Shown here in pieces: positions 5,660 through 35,223 of a stretch of DNA of 35,223 bases. The stretch comes from a virus, in the IMG/VR virus record IMGVR_UViG_3300035681_000075, positions 1 to 35,223 of that record. One strand, given 5' to 3'. Under the pieces are notes generated by a model that worked only from the letters and a program-made list of their open reading frames with translations, had not been told where the DNA came from and made no database searches. Position 1 is the stretch's first letter, and each line of letters starts with the position of its first letter. The position numbers and the translations under genes were made by a program.

Positions 5660-6564
5660 TAGATACACTCCTTCATTTGGGTTAGGATTTCTTTTGCCAC
5701 TGGTGGACACACTGCATTACCCAGCATGTGAAGTGCTAGGCTCTTGCTCTTGGGAAGCAGATAGTCAGACGGGAATCCCATAGCGTTCTTGTACTCACTC
5801 AAAGAAAGCATTCGCATCTTATCCCTATTGATAAGAGCAAACTTTTCCTTCGTGGTTATAGTTCCAAGAGGCTTCTTAATACTTCTACCGCCCCGCTCAG
5901 ATCCGTAGTACGCAATCAAGAAGTCATCGCCATGATCCTTAATACCATTCGCCCACTTGCGTTTAGTACTAGCAGCCTTATCAGATACCATTGACCACTT
6001 GTATTCCCCTTCTTCAATCAAGTCTTTGAAAGGGATATGTTCTTTGAAGGGGTTTGTTTTGACACGCAAGGGTTGGTCTTTAGACCCAGTAATAAAAACC
6101 CTTACTCTAGATTGAGCTACACCAAAGTCGGCAGCGTTCAACACATTGGCAGCTAGGTTATACCCCAGCTTTTCCATACAGCTTTTCCACTGAGGATACA
6201 ATTCCCAGTCAAGAAACTCTGTGACATTCTCTACTACAAAAGCTTTGGGCCTGGTGGTTTCAACGCAAGCAACAACAGCCCATGCTGTACTCCTTGCTGC
6301 ATCATGTCTTGGTTGATCTGTTCCCCGAGCTTTGCTATGCCCTTGGCAAGAGGGGCTGGCTAACAGAACATCGTACTGGGGCAGGGTCGTAAAGTCTGCT
6401 TGCTGTAAGTCCTGACAACTGTGAAAGGTCTTGGGGTGATTGCATTCATGTACATGCACCGCATCCTTCCAATGGTTAGCTGCCCATACAACTTCACACC
6501 CTGCTTGTACTGCTCCGGTACTAAAGCCACCAGCCCCTGCGAATAGGTCTATAACTTTTAGCAT
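5659..6564 (-). CDS. DNA (cytosine-5) methyltransferase
   Basis: The order of C5-methyltransferase motifs is clear. Motif I is DLFAGAGGFS (residues 6-15, SAM binding). Motif IV is ASPSCQGHS with the catalytic Cys at 73. Motif VI is VVENV (110-114), motif VIII is QSRVRVF (151-157), and motif X is LGNAVCPP near the C-terminus. At 301 aa it is short, so the target-recognition segment between motifs VIII and IX is small (roughly residues 160-240). The catalytic loop reads P-S-C-Q, with Pro two residues before Cys rather than the common P-C-Q; related phage enzymes carry SPxC variants. Its likely role is methylation of phage DNA, protecting it from host restriction or preparing it for further modification. 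It overlaps the upstream gene by 7 bp. Confidence 0.92.
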   Translation of the reverse strand: MLKVIDLFAGAGGFSTGAVQAGCEVVWAANHWKDAVHVHECNHPKTFHSCQDLQQADFTTLPQYDVLLASPSCQGHSKARGTDQPRHDAARSTAWAVVACVETTRPKAFVVENVTEFLDWELYPQWKSCMEKLGYNLAANVLNAADFGVAQSRVRVFITGSKDQPLRVKTNPFKEHIPFKDLIEEGEYKWSMVSDKAASTKRKWANGIKDHGDDFLIAYYGSERGGRSIKKPLGTITTKEKFALINRDKMRMLSLSEYKNAMGFPSDYLLPKSKSLALHMLGNAVCPPVAKEILTQMKECI

Positions 6565-14617: not shown

Positions 14618-15091
14618 TTAGATAGGTATAACCTTATCCTTTGTTCCACGCTTCATGGTGAAGTTTTCAAGGATGAAGTTTATCCTGTCATTGAGCTTGC
14701 CGATCTGATGAAAGGCAATGTTTAACTTCTCTTGCATTTCCCAGAGTTGGTCTTGGAGTACTGCTTTTTCACTGTGAGCCAGTGGGTTGAGAGTAGCAGG
14801 GGTTGGCTCTGGTGTTGGTTCGCCCATACCAACAGCTTGACGGAAGAGCTTGTAGTAGCTCTCGTATATTTGACCTTGATCCTTGGCCACTTGGCCCTGA
14901 AGAACCTTGATACTTTCCTCATCTCTGGCTTCCACAGCCAGAGAGTATTGGATTTCAAATTCTTTGGCCAACTTTTCAAGGGCATTGGCATGCCCTTTTA
15001 GTTCGGTAGCAGAGCACTTCTGTGCTTTGTCTAATCGTGAACAGATGTTAACGACTTTGGATTGACTTACGGTTACGGTAGCTTCGGACAT
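14618..15091 (-). CDS. Hypothetical coiled-coil protein (157 aa)
   Basis: ATG 15091 follows CTAGGAGTATCTC. The sequence is mainly helical with heptad-like segments (LKGHANALEKLAKEFEIQYS, then LQDQLWEMQEKLNIAFHQIG). These are separated by a Pro-rich hinge GEPTPEPTPATLNP at about residue 90-103. The C-terminus is basic. This looks like a two-helix-bundle dimer; function unknown. The gene carries perfect stem-loops of 9 bp (14922-14930 with 14936-14944) and 8 bp (14978-14985 with 14990-14997). Single-gene unit with element copy 5 upstream. Confidence 0.6.
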   Translation of the reverse strand: MSEATVTVSQSKVVNICSRLDKAQKCSATELKGHANALEKLAKEFEIQYSLAVEARDEESIKVLQGQVAKDQGQIYESYYKLFRQAVGMGEPTPEPTPATLNPLAHSEKAVLQDQLWEMQEKLNIAFHQIGKLNDRINFILENFTMKRGTKDKVIPI

Positions 15092-15146
15092 GAGATACTC
15101 CTAGAATATTTAGTTATGGGACTTGCATGCTGAGTGCTGCAACCAT

Positions 15147-15164
15147 CCCCAAGACATTAAGGAT
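15147..15164 (-). promoter_or_regulatory. Repeated 18-bp leader/operator element, copy 5
   Basis: It reads ATCCTTAATGTCTTGGGG on the minus strand. With upstream GGACTGTA it is nearly identical over about 28 bp to copy 6. It lies about 56 bp upstream of the 14618-15091 start. Confidence 0.55.
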
Positions 15165-15195
15165 TACAGTCCAAGGACGGATGCGGGGTGCGTGC

Positions 15196-15214
15196 AAGCG
15201 AGCGTAGCGAGCGC
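15196..15214. repeat. GCGAGCGTAGCGAG repeat, copy 2
   Basis: The second copy of the GC-rich string seen at 14156-14169, again located between a terminator and an 18-bp element. A small GCAC-GAA-GTGC hairpin follows at about 15229-15239. This fills most of the 202-bp gap between genes. Confidence 0.6.
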
Positions 15215-15244
15215 ATACTGTTAAGGAAGCACGAAGTGCGACAG

Positions 15245-15282
15245 GAAAAAAAGAATCCCCACCACCCGAAGGTGATGAGGAT
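15245..15282 (-). terminator. Strong intrinsic terminator with UUCG loop
   Basis: Twelve-nt arms (15255-15266 with 15271-15282) pair with only G-U wobbles. The minus-strand loop is TTCG closed by C-G, and the stem is followed by TCTTTTTTT. It ends the transcript of the hairpin-tiled gene 15294-15770. Confidence 0.88.
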
Positions 15283-15293
15283 AAGGGGAAGGC

Positions 15294-15770
15294 TTATACT
15301 TTTTCGGCAATAGCAATCGCCGAAAATATTCTTGGCATGGACAGGGTGGTTTCCACCCCGCCTGACCATTCTTGAAACTGGGCACGGGAATGCCCAGAAA
15401 ATTTGGATGCTTGGCACAACTCGACCAGTTGGTCGGCCAAGAGTGCAACATCTTTTTCCATGCCACGGTGCATGGAAACGGCAATGTTTGCCGTTTTTCT
15501 ACGGACACCGTTGTCCGTGAGAAACTTGATCTTTCCTTCACGCAAAAGAAGGGAAGCTCTCAGGGTTTTACCCCTGAGAACTAAACTGCCATGGTTCCCC
15601 ATGCCTTGGCTGTTAATACGAACCGAGGAGTATTCCTCGTTTACATCCCCTGTTACGGGGATGTTCCATGAGAAGCCGAAGCTTCTTAATAAGCCTGCAT
15701 TGTTGAGTGCAACAGTGTCGCACTCAGCAACGGATAGTCCTTCATAAGAAATGTTGTTAAAAGAACCCAT
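15294..15770 (-). CDS. Hypothetical protein from a hairpin-tiled gene (158 aa)
   Basis: The frame has a good start (ATG 15770 behind AAGGAGAAACTC) and encodes a plausible globular protein. It has a Gly/Ser-rich N-terminus, strands (VNEEYSSVRINSQGMGNHGS, LVLRGKTLRASLLLREGKIK), then a helical middle (MEKDVALLADQLVELCQASK) and a C-terminal AIAIAEKV. I recognise no family. The coding DNA is extraordinary: at least 14 perfect or near-perfect stem-loops of 5-11 bp follow one another with little space, so nearly every segment of the mRNA can be paired. Single-gene unit with a structured leader upstream and a strong terminator behind. It may act as an RNA as well as, or instead of, a protein. Confidence 0.6.
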   Translation of the reverse strand: MGSFNNISYEGLSVAECDTVALNNAGLLRSFGFSWNIPVTGDVNEEYSSVRINSQGMGNHGSLVLRGKTLRASLLLREGKIKFLTDNGVRRKTANIAVSMHRGMEKDVALLADQLVELCQASKFSGHSRAQFQEWSGGVETTLSMPRIFSAIAIAEKV

Positions 15771-15784
15771 GAGTTTCTCCTTAG

Positions 15785-15898
15785 TTTAAATGTGCTCAGA
15801 GTCCCTCTGAGCGGGGGAGTGTACTTGACCTCTTTGGTTGCCTAGGCTTTCGCCTACCAAACTTTGAGGGGTATTTCCTCCAAAGCCGTACACCTTTA
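15785..15898 (-). promoter_or_regulatory. Structured 5' leader with three-way junction (riboswitch-like candidate)
   Basis: P1 pairs 15819-15824 with 15888-15893 (GTGTAC/GTACAC). Inside it, one arm pairs 15833-15837 with 15857-15861 and ends in a 5-bp stem with a GAAA loop (15843-15847 with 15852-15856). The other arm pairs 15862-15869 with 15877-15885 with one bulge. A separate perfect 8-bp hairpin (15794-15801 with 15805-15812) lies between the junction and the ribosome site of the 15294-15770 gene. It matches no riboswitch class I recognise. Confidence 0.5.
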
Positions 15899-15918
15899 CA
15901 TGAATTTGGGAATACAAT

Positions 15919-15936
15919 CCCCACGACATTAAGGAG
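15919..15936 (-). promoter_or_regulatory. Repeated 18-bp leader/operator element, copy 6
   Basis: It reads CTCCTTAATGTCGTGGGG on the minus strand, pairing with copy 5 as a subgroup. It stands about 150 bp upstream of the 15294-15770 start, with the structured leader between. This suggests that the leader is an addition to a standard unit. A 7-bp inverted repeat TTCAGTA/TACTGAA (15965-15971 with 15989-15995) lies further upstream in this 389-bp gene-free stretch. Confidence 0.5.
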
Positions 15937-16030
15937 TACAGTCCGAAAGAACGAGCCGAGTCGATTCAGTAGCCTTGACCCGCCAGAATACTGAAGCCTT
16001 ACTCCCCCGCAAAAGACTATCCCTAGTTCC

Positions 16031-16120
16031 ACGGCGGGGGCTTGGAACCCCGTACCACCTAGTGTGGTAGCGTGTTACACCCCACCCCCTGCTTGCACAG
16101 GGAGTGTGTTGGGTGTCCTC
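16031..16120 (-). ncRNA. Three-hairpin RNA element with T-loop, copy 1
   Basis: Read on the minus strand it starts GAGGACACCC. Hairpin A pairs 16111-16116 with 16077-16082 around an inner CCCTG/CAGGG hairpin. Then come seven unpaired bases (AACACGC), hairpin B (16064-16069 with 16053-16058, loop ACTAG), and immediately hairpin C (GGGG/CCCC around TTCCAAG, 16037-16051). The last resembles a tRNA T-arm. The same order, loops and linker recur at 19916-19978. There is no acceptor stem pairing, so it is not a normal tRNA. It lies 40 bp behind the stop of the 16160-18574 gene, in its 3' region. Confidence 0.55.
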
Positions 16121-24926: not shown

Positions 24927-27455
24927 ATGAGTAAATTTGAAATACCATCATCGCTTGAAACAGCCAGTCCCGAACTACTTAGAAGGTTTATTCAAGACCG
25001 AAAAGCTTTTCATAACGATCAACTAAAAAAGTCTGGGGTACTTTCCCTACCTCCCCAGTACTTACGAAACATGGCTCACACCCTAGGCCAATCGCCTTCC
25101 GCTCCCCTAGCTCTTGATTCAGATGATGCTGAAGAGCCAAAGGTAGATACATACAACATGACCGCTCGTTTTGTAATTACAACATCGGGCAAAGATAGAC
25201 ACGGTGACATTGTTTTACCCCGAGGTTGCGTATCCCATCTTAAAAACTATACTCGTAACCCTCGCATATTCTTTGCTCACAAAACCGAAGAGCTTCCTAT
25301 TGCATCTGCCCGTGACCCAGAAGGCAACCTTGCCCTTGAGATTCTTGAAGACAAAATCTACTCTACAGCTTACTTCCACGGAGAAACCCGTGAGTCAGAA
25401 CTAATCTTTCGTCTAATAGCCCGCAAAGAATTACAAGCTTGCTCCATAGGTTTTCTTCCTATCCGAGCTACTCTTATTGAAGATGAAGATGAAGAAGACC
25501 TTATCGACATAACAACAGGGGAAGAGATTCTTAACTTCCGTTCTAACTCTGCTCGTCAAATGCCATGCCTTCGATTTTTAGAATGGGATATGATTGAGTG
25601 GAGCGTAGTGCCTATCCCTGCAAACCAAGATGCACTTGCAGCCCACCTTTCCCGTGGACACATTGAAGGAGAAAAACTTTCTCCTTCTATCAAAAGAACA
25701 TTATCTTCTTTTGTGTCTAAAAAGAAAAATGTTTCAGTTTCACTTTCTCTTCCTTTAATCCAAGAAGAAGAAAGTGAAATTGAAACTCTGGAAAAAGAAA
25801 TTGAAAAAGAAATAGAAGAAAATGAAAACGAAAAAGCTGCTGAGGTAGATAAAGAAAAATTAGACGAAGTGTTTGCAAGCTATAAAAAAGAAACAAACAT
25901 GGGTTATGCAGCCCTTAAGAAATGGTCTGAGAGTGCTTGTTCCAAACGAGCATCTCTTAGTAGAGGTCCTATTAATCGTAACCTAGAACTTTTATCTACT
26001 CCTAAAGATAAGTGGACAGCAAAGCATATTACATGGGCAAACAAGACTATAGCCTTTAACACTCGCATGCTTGGTATGCCTAGAGGTAAAAGAATTTCTG
26101 AAGAATGTCCTTGGTCAAAGCGTGACATTTCCCTAAAAAATTGGGCTTACGACCCAGGCAAGACTCCCGAAAGTAAAAAAGAGTTAGGCGAAGAAATAAC
26201 TCATCAGATGTATGCAGGGCCTAGTCCTGGTGTTGATCTTCCTTTGGCTGAGAAAAAGAATCCTCCCGCTCCACCTAAAGATCAAATAACAGGAAGCGAT
26301 ACTAACAAGCCTAACTCGGCTTCGGATGATAAAGGCAAAATTACAATTAGTCAGTCAACCGAAAAGACTCTTAAGAATAAAATAAAAGAGCATAATGAAA
26401 AGATGAAAGAAAAACCAGCATGGGCAAAGACTACTCTAGGGGCAGTCAAGTCTGTGTATCGCCGAGGGGCAGGGGCTTTCTCTTCTTCCCACCGTCCTAA
26501 CATGACCCGTGCTCAATGGGCTTTTGCAAGGGTTAATGCTTTCTTATATCTTTGTAAAAACGGAAAACCAGAAAACAAAAAATACATAACAGACAATGAT
26601 CTCTTACACAAAGATCATCCTAAGTATTCCAAAGAAAAAAAATCTATTAAGAGTGCTAAAACCCTATCACGCTTAGAAACAAATTCTTTGTTTGGTAAAC
26701 TTTTAGCAAAGCAATACAAGGCAGTAAAGTCTGAGGTCAAGATGGCTATGGCGGTCCTCTTGTCCTTGCAAGAAGGATTACTCCCCGAAAAAATTAAAAT
26801 CGGGGTTTACATCATCCTTGCAAAGCATTATAAATTATTAGATATAACCTCTCCGGTTTATCGCAAGATTTCTAGCCTTGAAGAAATTAAAACGATGTTT
26901 CCGGAAATTGACATTAAGGAGTTTACTACCGTGGCAACCAACGAAGAAAACTGGATTAAGAGCGCAATGGATGAATTACAATCACCCCCTACTCAGGGCA
27001 AGCCAAAAAAGAAAAAGAAAGAAGATGAAGACGAAGAAGAAAAATACGCTTCTTCTAAAGACGATGAAGAAAAAGCAGAAGATGAAGATGCAGAAGAAAA
27101 AGCTGCCGATGACGATGACGAAAAAGAAGACAAAGAAGTAGACGAAGAAGAAAAAGAAATGGATGAAGAAGAAAAAGCTGAAGACGAAGACGAAGAAAAA
27201 ATGGTAGAAACCAAAGATATTCTTAAGTCTATGTCCGCAGTAATGCAATCCATGCACGAATGCTCAAACGCTCACACCGAGCTTCTTAAAGGTCTTCACG
27301 AAAAGATGGACGAATGTATGAAAGCATTTGCTCCTAAAGAAGACAAAGAACAGGAAGAAGACGAAATGAAGTCTATTCTTTCTGGTCTACTAACACTCAA
27401 GTCAAACCAAGACGCTTTAAACCGCCGTCTGTTTGAAGTGACAGGAAAACGGTAA
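24927..27455 (+). CDS. Prohead protease fused to long scaffold-like region (842 aa)
   Basis: Residues ~74-245 are an HK97-family (U35) prohead protease. TARFVITTSGKDRHGDIV starts the domain, FFAHKT supplies the His (118), and ACSIGF supplies the Ser (173). MIEWSVVPIPAN completes it. Family proteases are usually near 200 aa; this one continues for 600 more. Residues ~325-400 (KKWSESACSKRASLS, RNLELLSTPKDKWT) and ~499-562 (RRGAGAFSSSHRPNMTRAQW, NDLLHKDHP) are two blocks seen in structural proteins of other phages. Residues ~692-757 are Glu/Asp/Lys repeats, and the rest is coiled coil. The fused part most likely acts as the scaffold or delta domain during head assembly. Confidence 0.85.
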   Translation: MSKFEIPSSLETASPELLRRFIQDRKAFHNDQLKKSGVLSLPPQYLRNMAHTLGQSPSAPLALDSDDAEEPKVDTYNMTARFVITTSGKDRHGDIVLPRGCVSHLKNYTRNPRIFFAHKTEELPIASARDPEGNLALEILEDKIYSTAYFHGETRESELIFRLIARKELQACSIGFLPIRATLIEDEDEEDLIDITTGEEILNFRSNSARQMPCLRFLEWDMIEWSVVPIPANQDALAAHLSRGHIEGEKLSPSIKRTLSSFVSKKKNVSVSLSLPLIQEEESEIETLEKEIEKEIEENENEKAAEVDKEKLDEVFASYKKETNMGYAALKKWSESACSKRASLSRGPINRNLELLSTPKDKWTAKHITWANKTIAFNTRMLGMPRGKRISEECPWSKRDISLKNWAYDPGKTPESKKELGEEITHQMYAGPSPGVDLPLAEKKNPPAPPKDQITGSDTNKPNSASDDKGKITISQSTEKTLKNKIKEHNEKMKEKPAWAKTTLGAVKSVYRRGAGAFSSSHRPNMTRAQWAFARVNAFLYLCKNGKPENKKYITDNDLLHKDHPKYSKEKKSIKSAKTLSRLETNSLFGKLLAKQYKAVKSEVKMAMAVLLSLQEGLLPEKIKIGVYIILAKHYKLLDITSPVYRKISSLEEIKTMFPEIDIKEFTTVATNEENWIKSAMDELQSPPTQGKPKKKKKEDEDEEEKYASSKDDEEKAEDEDAEEKAADDDDEKEDKEVDEEEKEMDEEEKAEDEDEEKMVETKDILKSMSAVMQSMHECSNAHTELLKGLHEKMDECMKAFAPKEDKEQEEDEMKSILSGLLTLKSNQDALNRRLFEVTGKR

Positions 27456-31929: not shown

Positions 31930-32379
31930 ATGGCTACAGCTATTTCCGGTTTTCGTGGTCGTGTTATTGTAGGTACTACAACCCTCTTGGCTTCCAAGTG
32001 GTCTGTTACCTACAAGACCGAATTGCAAGATTGTTCCAGCTTTGAAGAAGAAACAGGCGGTGCTCAAGGAGCTATTACTCCTATTAGCCGATATGTTGCT
32101 TCTTTGTCTGACATGGAAGTTTCAATTGATGCTTTCTACGATGTAGAAACAGGCATTATCCCTGCCCTTAAGCCTGGCTCTTCTGTAGATTGCGAATTGT
32201 TTACTAACAAAGGAGCAAATCCAGCTTTTGGTATTGCAGCGGGTGTAGGTGGAACAGCAAAGAAATTTGCTTTTAAAGTTATTATTGAAAACCTCACTAC
32301 TGATACTGAAGTTAGAGGCGTGATTAAATACACGATTTCTGGTCGTGTAAGTGGTGGTCAGGCCTTGACCCTTGCTTAA
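31930..32379 (+). CDS. Major tail tube-like protein, paralogue 1 (149 aa)
   Basis: The product GFRGRVIVGTTTLLASKWSV, then DMEVSIDAFYDVETGIIPAL, then VIIENLTTDTEVRGVIKYTI is beta-rich with the compact barrel pattern of siphovirus tail tube proteins. It occupies their expected position between the terminator and the chaperones. It aligns with the following gene (32452-32916) over most of its length. SD is AAGGAGCTTCTCA, which is not buried in a hairpin, so this copy should be translated more strongly than the second. It is the better candidate for the main tube subunit. Confidence 0.6.
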   Translation: MATAISGFRGRVIVGTTTLLASKWSVTYKTELQDCSSFEEETGGAQGAITPISRYVASLSDMEVSIDAFYDVETGIIPALKPGSSVDCELFTNKGANPAFGIAAGVGGTAKKFAFKVIIENLTTDTEVRGVIKYTISGRVSGGQALTLA

Positions 32380-32451: not shown

Positions 32452-32916
32452 ATGGCCCGTGCAGCCGGATATGGTGGAAGAGTACTGATCAACGACACCG
32501 TACTTTATGCAAACAAGTGGGCTGTTGATTACACTCTTGAAACTGATGAAGGTACTAGCACTCAAGGAAACCAACCTGTTTACTTTAACCCCGCTAACCC
32601 TCAGACTTACCGACTGAATACAAAACGGTTATATCCCAAAGTAGCAGAAATCTCTATAAACTTTGAAGCATTCTACGACACTTCTCATGGGTGGCTAACT
32701 GCTTCGGCTCAACAAGGCGGTTTCTTTTGGGGTCTATGTCCTGGAAGAGAAGTTAGAATAACTCTTTTTCCAGCAACGCATCTTCGTAATAACGCACTCT
32801 GGTATTTTCAACAAGCTTTGATTGTCCAATGCACCCAGACCGTGGAAGTCAGGCAAGTTGTAAAAATAAGTTTTTCAGCTAAGAACAACGGTCCCAATTA
32901 CACTATTAACATTTAG
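32452..32916 (+). CDS. Tail tube-like protein, paralogue 2 (154 aa)
   Basis: It aligns with the 31930-32379 product: GYGGRVLINDTVLYANKWAV against GFRGRVIVGTTTLLASKWSV, VAEISINFEAFYD against LSDMEVSIDAFYD, and QTVEVRQVVKISFSAK against TDTEVRGVIKYTISGR. The middle contains a unique Asn/Pro/Tyr-rich insert (NQPVYFNPANPQTYRLNTKR) that paralogue 1 has in shorter form. Its ribosome site is held in a hairpin. It is likely a minor tube subunit, tail-tip or tube-capping protein. Confidence 0.55.
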   Translation: MARAAGYGGRVLINDTVLYANKWAVDYTLETDEGTSTQGNQPVYFNPANPQTYRLNTKRLYPKVAEISINFEAFYDTSHGWLTASAQQGGFFWGLCPGREVRITLFPATHLRNNALWYFQQALIVQCTQTVEVRQVVKISFSAKNNGPNYTINI

Positions 32917-32925
32917 GAGTTTGAT

Positions 32926-33369
32926 ATGGCTGAGATTTCTAAAGCCCTTGGTCTGGGCAGCAGTTTTGCACATGAAGGAAAGACTTACACCTGTTCCCCG
33001 TGGACATACAAGATCCAAGGCGAATTTGAACGCTACCTTGAAGATCATGCAATCCGAACAGCAAAACGCATGAGGCAATACCTTAACCAAGAAGAATACT
33101 CTGACCTAATTGCAAAAACACAAAAAGACATTGCAGAAGGTTATTACGCTTTTGGTGCATCACCCTGCATGAGAGCAATGCAAACTCTTACGCACTTTAA
33201 AAAAATACTACAACTGTGCCTTATCGTTAACCACCCTGACATTGACATGGAGTTTGTTGACGAGCTTGTACAGAACCGTCTTGAAGAAATGATGGCAAAA
33301 GTTGGAGAAGCGAACAACGACCCAAACCAGAATGGTCCGGAGGCAACTCAGAACCAGGTCGCCGGATAA
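32926..33369 (+). CDS. Tail assembly chaperone-like protein (gpG position, 147 aa)
   Basis: An acidic/helical 147-residue protein (GKTYTCSPWTYKIQGEFERY, then IAEGYYAFGASPCMRAMQTL, and LIVNHPDIDMEFVDELVQNR) ending in an Asn/Gln-rich tail. This profile and its place just before the tape-measure gene fit the first tail assembly chaperone of siphoviruses, which binds the tape measure during tail assembly. Start behind AGGAGTTTGAT. Confidence 0.6.
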   Translation: MAEISKALGLGSSFAHEGKTYTCSPWTYKIQGEFERYLEDHAIRTAKRMRQYLNQEEYSDLIAKTQKDIAEGYYAFGASPCMRAMQTLTHFKKILQLCLIVNHPDIDMEFVDELVQNRLEEMMAKVGEANNDPNQNGPEATQNQVAG

Positions 33370-33371
33370 CC

Positions 33372-33647
33372 ATGTCTGGGGTTTTTTCAACGCTAGTTAA
33401 AGAGCCTTTTAATCTTTCAATAGAAGAGATTGGAAGGCTCACTCCCTACCAAGTAAAAAACATCTTCTTTCGACCTAAAGAAGCAGATGAACCGGTGGGT
33501 GAGTTTCAAAGTGAGAAAGAACTTTTCTGGAAGGTTCATGTTGATTGGAAAGGGCTTACCGAAGACGAAACGCAAAAGTTGTGGGATCGGCATATTCGGA
33601 AGCAAGAAGAAAGTCTAAAAACACCACCGGAGAACTCCGATGATTAA
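33372..33647 (+). CDS. Second tail chaperone-like protein (91 aa)
   Basis: A 91-residue protein (FNLSIEEIGRLTPYQVKNIF, then FWKVHVDWKGLTEDETQKLW) in the -1 frame relative to the first chaperone, two bases behind its stop. Many siphoviruses make the second chaperone as a -1 frameshift extension of the first. Here the -1 frame is open from 33285, but I see no classic slippery heptamer, and there is an ATG at the start. Reinitiation is the simplest reading. The last 8 bases overlap the next gene. Confidence 0.55.
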   Translation: MSGVFSTLVKEPFNLSIEEIGRLTPYQVKNIFFRPKEADEPVGEFQSEKELFWKVHVDWKGLTEDETQKLWDRHIRKQEESLKTPPENSDD

Positions 33648-35223
33648 TGAAGGTGAAAGCCACAAGAAGCAACGGCTTATGCAAACTCCTTATACGGGTG
33701 CAGAAGCCGTTGGTAAGCTCCTTAAAAACTTTGGCCAAATATCGGAAGCTGTCTCTAGATTTGGTAATACATTAAACGCAATTCACATTGCTGCCGAAAA
33801 CATTGAACATGAGTTTCGCAACCTTGCTTCAATGATGTCTATGACACGGTATTCAATGTCCATGTCTAACAACTCTCCTATGTACGGTGCTGGGGCAAAG
33901 CGCACAAACTTCCCCAGCCCACAAGAACGACTAATAGAATTTGAAGTAGTTGAACGAGCTAAAAACAATATCCGTGATCAACTCAAACAAGAGCGTGGCG
34001 AACAACCTTTTAAAGACAACGCAACCCGCCTTGAAGAATACGAATCATTCTTAGAAGAAAAAGAAGCAGCGTACAAAAACCATAAAGCAAGAATGGATGA
34101 TTTGTACAAAAGAGATGGAAAAGAACCAGTCACCACCGAAACAAAAATAAACGAATACCAAAAATTCTTAGATGAAAAATACACTAGGTTACAAACCTAT
34201 TTAAAAAAAGAACTAGACTTATTTGCTACCATGCAAAAAGCTAGAGGACTTGAAAAAGTTGGAATAAATAAATTAATTTTTGAATACGAAGAATCTTTAA
34301 AATCACAAAACAAAAGAAAAAATAATAACAAAAACAACAACTCTGGTTCTGATTATGTATCTGGTTCTGCCCCTGACTATTCAGAGATGCCAGCAGTACC
34401 CAAAAAGAAAGCAGCTATAGTTGTATTAGACTTTGAAACGGCTGGTGCGCCTGGTGCAGATATACAAAAAGATAAAAACGATTATGTTAAGTCAGCAGAC
34501 ATTATACAAATAGCAGCCGAATTTAGAGATGATGTTGGCAATGTACTAGAAACATTTAATGTGTTTTTAGACAAACGAAGTAAAGAAATAACGCTACCGT
34601 CTAAGCAAGGATTAGGTGGCGACAAGTTTGCTGGTCTTCAAAAGGCTTGGCAAGAAGCAAAAGACAGTGGCAGCATGGTTACTATGGAAGATGCTGCTGC
34701 CAAATTAAAAAGCATAATAGATTCTATAGTTGTACCTGGTGTTACAAAGTTTGTAGTTAAAGACACTTTTGATACTGAGATAGTTCAAAATAACGACACT
34801 GATAAAAACAAATTGCTTCAGCCCGTTCTTGGGCCTTTTATGCAAAACAGTGATGTTATTGATGTTCAAGATGTATTTAAACAATTGTTTGAAAAAGAAA
34901 AAGAATTAGATCCTAGTAAACAAAGTGCCACTCAAAGAGCAATGGCAGATGTTGATAGCACTACTGGTGGAACAAATTACGATAAACAAGTTTTTACTAT
35001 TGAAACAATGTTTTCTGCTCTTAAGCCTGAGTTAGAAAAATTAGCTAATGAATTAAATGAAAGTAGTACAGACCTTGGAAAGTTTCATAACGCTCTTGGT
35101 GATGTGCGAATTGAATCGCTTCTTTATCTTTTTGCCCAAAGAAAATTAAAAACAATAGCAAAAGAAGCTGCTACTAAAAATCTTAACCCAACAAAAGGAT
35201 CTAAAGGTAACACAACTGCTTCA
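33640..35223 (+). CDS. Tape-measure-position virion protein with embedded DnaQ-like DEDDh exonuclease domain (3' end outside window)
   Basis: It is open from ATG 33640 to the window end (528 residues visible). Residues ~1-230 are helical/coiled coil, with an Asn-rich linker at about 230-245. Residues ~258-500 carry a complete DEDDh exonuclease set. Exo I is VVLDFETAG (D264, E266), followed by ADIIQIAAEF. Exo II is KDTFDTEIV (D378). Exo III is FHNALGDVRIESLLYLF (H483, D488). Spacing and neighbouring hydrophobic strands are typical of DnaQ/epsilon-like 3'-5' exonucleases. Position behind the two chaperones predicts the tape measure, a long protein that sets tail length and is ejected with the DNA. 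A nuclease within it would be delivered into the cell. No clear SD; coupled to the upstream gene by an 8-bp overlap. Confidence 0.75.
   Translation, partial: MINEGESHKKQRLMQTPYTGAEAVGKLLKNFGQISEAVSRFGNTLNAIHIAAENIEHEFRNLASMMSMTRYSMSMSNNSPMYGAGAKRTNFPSPQERLIEFEVVERAKNNIRDQLKQERGEQPFKDNATRLEEYESFLEEKEAAYKNHKARMDDLYKRDGKEPVTTETKINEYQKFLDEKYTRLQTYLKKELDLFATMQKARGLEKVGINKLIFEYEESLKSQNKRKNNNKNNNSGSDYVSGSAPDYSEMPAVPKKKAAIVVLDFETAGAPGADIQKDKNDYVKSADIIQIAAEFRDDVGNVLETFNVFLDKRSKEITLPSKQGLGGDKFAGLQKAWQEAKDSGSMVTMEDAAAKLKSIIDSIVVPGVTKFVVKDTFDTEIVQNNDTDKNKLLQPVLGPFMQNSDVIDVQDVFKQLFEKEKELDPSKQSATQRAMADVDSTTGGTNYDKQVFTIETMFSALKPELEKLANELNESSTDLGKFHNALGDVRIESLLYLFAQRKLKTIAKEAATKNLNPTKGSKGNTTAS

Follow-up and report, generated by a model that had tools for sequence, protein, structure and literature searches.

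A predicted DnaQ-like exonuclease domain within the tape-measure protein of an uncultured tailed-phage lineage

The window analysed here is a 35,223-nucleotide stretch of viral DNA (IMG/VR virus record IMGVR_UViG_3300035681_000075, positions 1 to 35,223), and the gene at its 3' end occupies the tape-measure position. Overall, our analysis of this gene and its homologues suggests that the tape-measure protein (TMP) of this lineage carries a catalytic, tail-delivered DnaQ-like exonuclease, a reading to which we assign a probability of roughly two in three. A DnaQ-like DEDDh 3'-5' exonuclease domain appears to be built into the N-terminal part of the protein. Judging by the structural models, the presence of a DEDDh fold within the TMP is highly probable; that the domain is catalytic is predicted, with good confidence, from its conserved residues.

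The active-site residues provided the starting point. D264, E266, D378, H483 and D488 had been named in a preliminary description of the window before any relative was compared, and all five were found at the positions it gave, in the contexts VVLDFETAG, KDTFDTEIVQ and KFHNALGDVRIES. The coiled-coil-like stretch and the Asn-rich linker that it had placed ahead of the domain were both seen in the translation. A DEDDh-like motif string, composed after the family had been seen, was found a single time in the window protein; when that protein was shuffled 2000 times, 2 of the shuffled sequences contained it. The agreement with RNase_T/DEDDh profiles was partial. The profile phrog_192 ("DNA polymerase exonuclease subunit") matched the window protein with E=1.6e-6 and the domain alone with E=1.2e-5, whereas Pfam RNase_T (PF00929) was silent on the TMP domain, leaving phrog_192 as the only significant profile. 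Because of this silence, membership in the DEDDh family rests on the fold and the residues. Single-sequence searches of Pfam and the PDB returned no significant exonuclease match. A PDB profile search with an alignment of six domains (A1) was not significant either; its nine matches included DinG, one named exodeoxyribonuclease III, and PolC, which aligns to A1 on the motifs.

AlphaFold2 models of the domain were built from A1 in two versions, one of the window type and one of the short-TMP clade (with the sequence of relative L030 placed first). The window-type model (predicted local distance difference test score, pLDDT, 71; predicted template-modelling score, pTM, 0.75) has its strands and helices in the same order as DnaQ. 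When it was compared with the PDB by Foldseek, the matches listed were all DEDD exonucleases, with REXO2, DnaQ epsilon and oligoribonucleases on top (E from 4e-5, probability 1.00, target TM-score ~0.6). The top matches in the viral library BFVD were DEDDh/DnaQ proteins as well. The short-TMP-clade model (pLDDT 78) also had DEDD exonucleases as its top PDB matches (best E 1.2e-3), with Pop2/CAF1, Orn, TREX1 and ExoI among the best. The RNase H-like, DnaQ-type fold implied by the preliminary description was thus recovered by structure prediction. Since the best structural matches span DNA and RNA enzymes, the substrate could be either.

The domain recurs in relatives. A search with the window capsid protein gathered 20 loci. 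The gene that occupies the equivalent position in them is complete in five lineages with capsid proteins 83-90% identical to that of the window, where it encodes 3653 (L027), 3134 (L028), 2594 (L029), 1307 (L030) and 1327 (L031) amino acids (aa), and the exonuclease domain is present in all five; in a sixth, partial lineage (L009), motif I is seen before the contig ends. In A1, the domains of the relatives are only 17-29% identical to that of the window, and those of L030 and L031 are ~55-60% identical to each other. The catalytic residues D264, E266, H483 and D488 account for four of the nine invariant columns among ~300. A near-identical pair of sequences differs over the domain by 8 synonymous and 2 non-synonymous changes, none at the motifs, corresponding to a ratio of non-synonymous to synonymous substitution rates (dN/dS) of ~0.07. 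Separately, a stand-alone RNase_T exonuclease gene (E 4.5e-24) lies at 14755-16068 (+) of L033, the contig of L014; no such gene was detected in the close relative G009. Despite the high capsid identity, the G+C content of the contigs spans 37% to 51% (L010 versus L008, L014 and the window).

The complete homologues also support the identification of the gene as a TMP: they are very long, contain hydrophobic segments and are followed by further tail genes. No other open reading frame (ORF) comes near the TMP in size across the stretches read for L027, L028 and L029; in L030 and L031 the largest ORF, another tail-region gene, is about as long. The homologous TMPs have long multi-pass hydrophobic runs in their C-terminal part and share a short C-terminal motif, (V/I)EEA(Y/H)...Q..AL..D. 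The TMP follows the tail tube and a pair of small chaperone-like genes and precedes distal tail genes, the tube and chaperone roles being assigned by position. The TMP-family profile phrog_794 matched L028 only, inside an Ala/Gly-rich stretch, and no TMP-family profile matched L030 or L031. Because this profile evidence is weak, we base the TMP assignment on where the gene lies, how large it is and how its protein is built. N-terminal homology to the window protein was found in L005 (33% over 188 aa, E 3e-21), L010, L008 and L014. The remainder of the gene could be followed in part: the homologues are complete at 1307-3653 aa, while the window protein, lengthened to 655 aa by the contig L001/L004 (99% identical over the TMP gene), is still open. 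The window contig and the near-identical L001/L004 contig both end within the TMP gene, 381 bases apart. Searches with single domains and with the TMP C-terminus returned nothing beyond the known lineage. By tblastn, the window, L029 and L030 proteins had no TMP relative among cultured phages, L029 matching in its staphylococcal-nuclease-like (SNase) region only, and a scan of genome contigs with the capsid protein found no host.

That SNase region is a second nuclease domain in the TMPs of some relatives. PF00565 (SNase) scored above cut-off in 5 of 12 records, within the TMP frames of the L005/L006, L008/L019 and L010 lineages. All three long TMPs carry the domain and the short TMPs are without it. 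When the SNase domain of L029 (L010 lineage) was aligned to thermonuclease, the active-site D, R, D, E and R were found to be kept. Other segments were observed in the same proteins. Between its exonuclease and SNase domains, L029 has a zincin-like HExxH motif at residue ~706 (TLFHESIHALF); the corresponding stretches of L027 (~1299, EEVLHG) and L028 (~1008, EEAFIHG) have a degenerate form of it. Residues 2017-2045 of L027 form a zinc-ribbon-like CxxC...CxxC (Pfam Zn_ribbon_4, E 0.0015, below cut-off).

Table 1. Coordinates of the window features and of the nuclease domains in the TMPs of relatives (window positions in nucleotides; relatives in residues)
Feature	Location	Strand	Basis or remark
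Tape-measure-position gene, 5' 528 codons	33640..35223	+	ATG start; open at contig end
Conserved N-terminal segment (PYTGAEAVGKLLKNFGQ...) and charged coiled-coil-like stretch	33640..34299	+	homologous N-termini in relatives
Asn-rich low-complexity linker	34300..34407	+	translation
Predicted DnaQ-like DEDDh exonuclease domain, residues ~257-505	34408..35154	+	phrog_192, AlphaFold and Foldseek, alignment A1
Motif I, D264-x-E266 (DFE)	34429..34437	+	invariant in 6/6 aligned domains
Motif II, D378 (TFD)	34771..34773	+	alignment; varies among relatives
Motif III, H483...D488 (HNALGD)	35086..35103	+	H and D invariant in 6/6 aligned domains
Small tail-chaperone-like gene (SIEEIGRLTPYQV...), just before TMP	33372..33647	+	position; homologues directly before TMP in L012, L031
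Second chaperone-like gene	32926..33369	+	position; homologue in L012
Probable tail-tube-type protein	31930..32379	+	position; N-terminus similar to paralogue 32452-32916; inferred
Exonuclease motif span, relatives	L029 223-441; L030 230-463; L031 235-469		
Exonuclease motif span, relatives	L028 597-828; L027 848-1083		
SNase-like domain, downstream of exonuclease	L027 1602-1701; L028 ~1415-1530; L029 1169-1265		

The features are collected in Table 1. Because no profile matched the probable tail-tube-type protein, we only infer its role. Elsewhere in the window, a C-5 cytosine DNA methyltransferase (PF00145, E 1e-52) is encoded at 5662-6564 (-), and a protein of 842 aa, which has a prohead protease S78 and a DUF5824 domain, at 24927-27455 (+); the ORF at the corresponding place in the relatives encodes 600-919 aa.

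Several points weigh against a catalytic, tail-delivered exonuclease and need to be set beside the evidence above. Pfam had no match to the window exonuclease domain, and when A1 was compared by hhalign with three DEDDh enzymes of E. coli, the match fell short of significance (2.6% probability, E 0.018), although motif I was aligned. Both structural models were built from one set of six sequences, and their confidence is medium. Motif II has D in the window, L027 and L029 and E/D in L028, and it is alignment-dependent in L030 and L031, where the D was placed manually with an L029-like spacing. As the window gene is cut, only the homologues reveal the full length of the TMP, its hydrophobic segments and the presence or absence of an SNase. 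Furthermore, a folded domain of ~28 kDa may not fit the tail tube, so that it would need unfolding or remodelling there.

These points lend themselves to different explanations. The missing Pfam match and the appearance of the loose motif in shuffled sequences would fit motifs that arose by chance or composition in a fast-evolving coiled-coil protein. We rejected this origin, which is hardly credible in view of the profile match, both fold searches, the shuffle test and the independent conservation in divergent lineages. The variation of motif II, shifted in L030 and L031, and the low identity between domains would be expected if the domain, while keeping its fold, were largely or wholly non-catalytic and had a structural or binding role (as a spacer, for example, or in contacting DNA or a host factor). 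Such a role is unlikely when catalytic residues make up so many of the invariant columns, dN/dS is low and the SNase domains likewise retain their catalytic residues. TMP processing is known in lambda, and the domain might be released from the TMP by proteolysis and work as an exonuclease on its own, inside the infected cell or late in assembly, rather than being injected. We regard this as decidedly improbable: the low-complexity linker ahead of the domain and the difficulty of accommodating a folded domain in the tail tube argue for it, but an N-terminal cut would release the conserved N-terminal segment too, and no protease site was identified. It is also rather unlikely that the exonuclease acts on the DNA of the phage itself, trimming or resecting the leading genome end, close to which it would lie in the tail or entry pore, and thereby aiding circularisation or recombination at entry. 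The placement of the domain in the N-terminal part of the TMP would suit this activity, and the TMP-fused enzyme of the Thermus phage P23-45 has been proposed to act on the genome passing the TMP pore (PMC10770324). Nevertheless, a constitutive nuclease next to the end of the phage's own genome would carry a risk, and an SNase endonuclease such as the relatives have suits end-trimming poorly.

A catalytic exonuclease delivered by the tail would be consistent with how TMPs are believed to function. In siphophages they are thought to be metastable in the tail tube and to be injected into the envelope, forming a DNA channel (PMC10770324), so a TMP-borne nuclease would be at the entry site; in lambda, the TMP becomes associated with entry proteins of the inner membrane as injection takes place (PMC13190303). 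The TMP studied here would be kept in the tail tube and ejected into the cell envelope on infection, as in other siphophages. Once ejected, the domain would fold and, using two metal ions, trim DNA or RNA from the 3' end, either at the site of entry or within it. Where relatives have a long TMP, the SNase-type endonuclease of the same chain would create ends for the exonuclease to degrade. Host or defence nucleic acid would be the likeliest target. We favour it over the phage's own genome because, in our judgement, an active nuclease pair is ill-suited to gentle trimming of own-genome ends, yet the preference is tentative and stays somewhat below even odds. More speculative still is the complete picture of the TMP as a nuclease delivery chain, which would bring the DEDDh exonuclease (and in some members the SNase) with or ahead of the genome and destroy nucleic acids of the host or of its defences where the phage enters. 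Uncultured tailed phages of this group may, then, inject nucleases as infection starts. The usual view of TMPs is that they serve as rulers and form pores, some of them having wall-cutting domains as well; if the present reading is true, virions would hold nucleases that could act on nucleic acids just as the phage enters, and host defences such as SNIPE act at that same entry site (PMC13190303).

The preliminary description knew of no such nuclease in tape measures. This holds for the specific enzyme, as no phage TMP with a DEDDh exonuclease or an SNase turned up in our search of open-licence papers, but not for enzyme-fused TMPs in general, which have been published (P23-45 and Tme). Co-mentions of exonuclease and TMP in PMC4569894 and PMC6070908 concern separate genes, not fusions. 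With DnaQ epsilon, oligoribonuclease/REXO2, RNase T and ExoX, the window domain has the predicted fold and the five catalytic residues in common; those enzymes are stand-alone or polymerase-associated, whereas the window domain sits in a tail protein and has long insertions. Muralytic TMPs, for example that of mycobacteriophage TM4, resemble the window TMP in carrying an enzyme domain but cut peptidoglycan rather than nucleic acid (cited in PMC13277306). The hub protein of the Bacillus phage element BtI1 likewise has a nuclease, an SNase-like domain, on a tail structural protein, but it is not a TMP and has the SNase only (PMC2147016). Tme, from the contractile injection system of Streptomyces davawensis, is TMP-related and combines a nuclease domain with membrane helices, as here; by contrast, its nuclease is an EndA-like endonuclease at the C-terminus and belongs to a bacterial injection system, whereas here a DEDDh exonuclease is predicted in a phage (PMC11126660). 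In P23-45, gp96 is a giant TMP with a nucleic-acid enzyme in its N-terminal part, like the window TMP, and also has a metallopeptidase and membrane segments (PMC10770324). This feature is missing from some related phages, and the enzyme is a virion RNA polymerase, not a nuclease, with activity and structure shown experimentally (PMC10770324).
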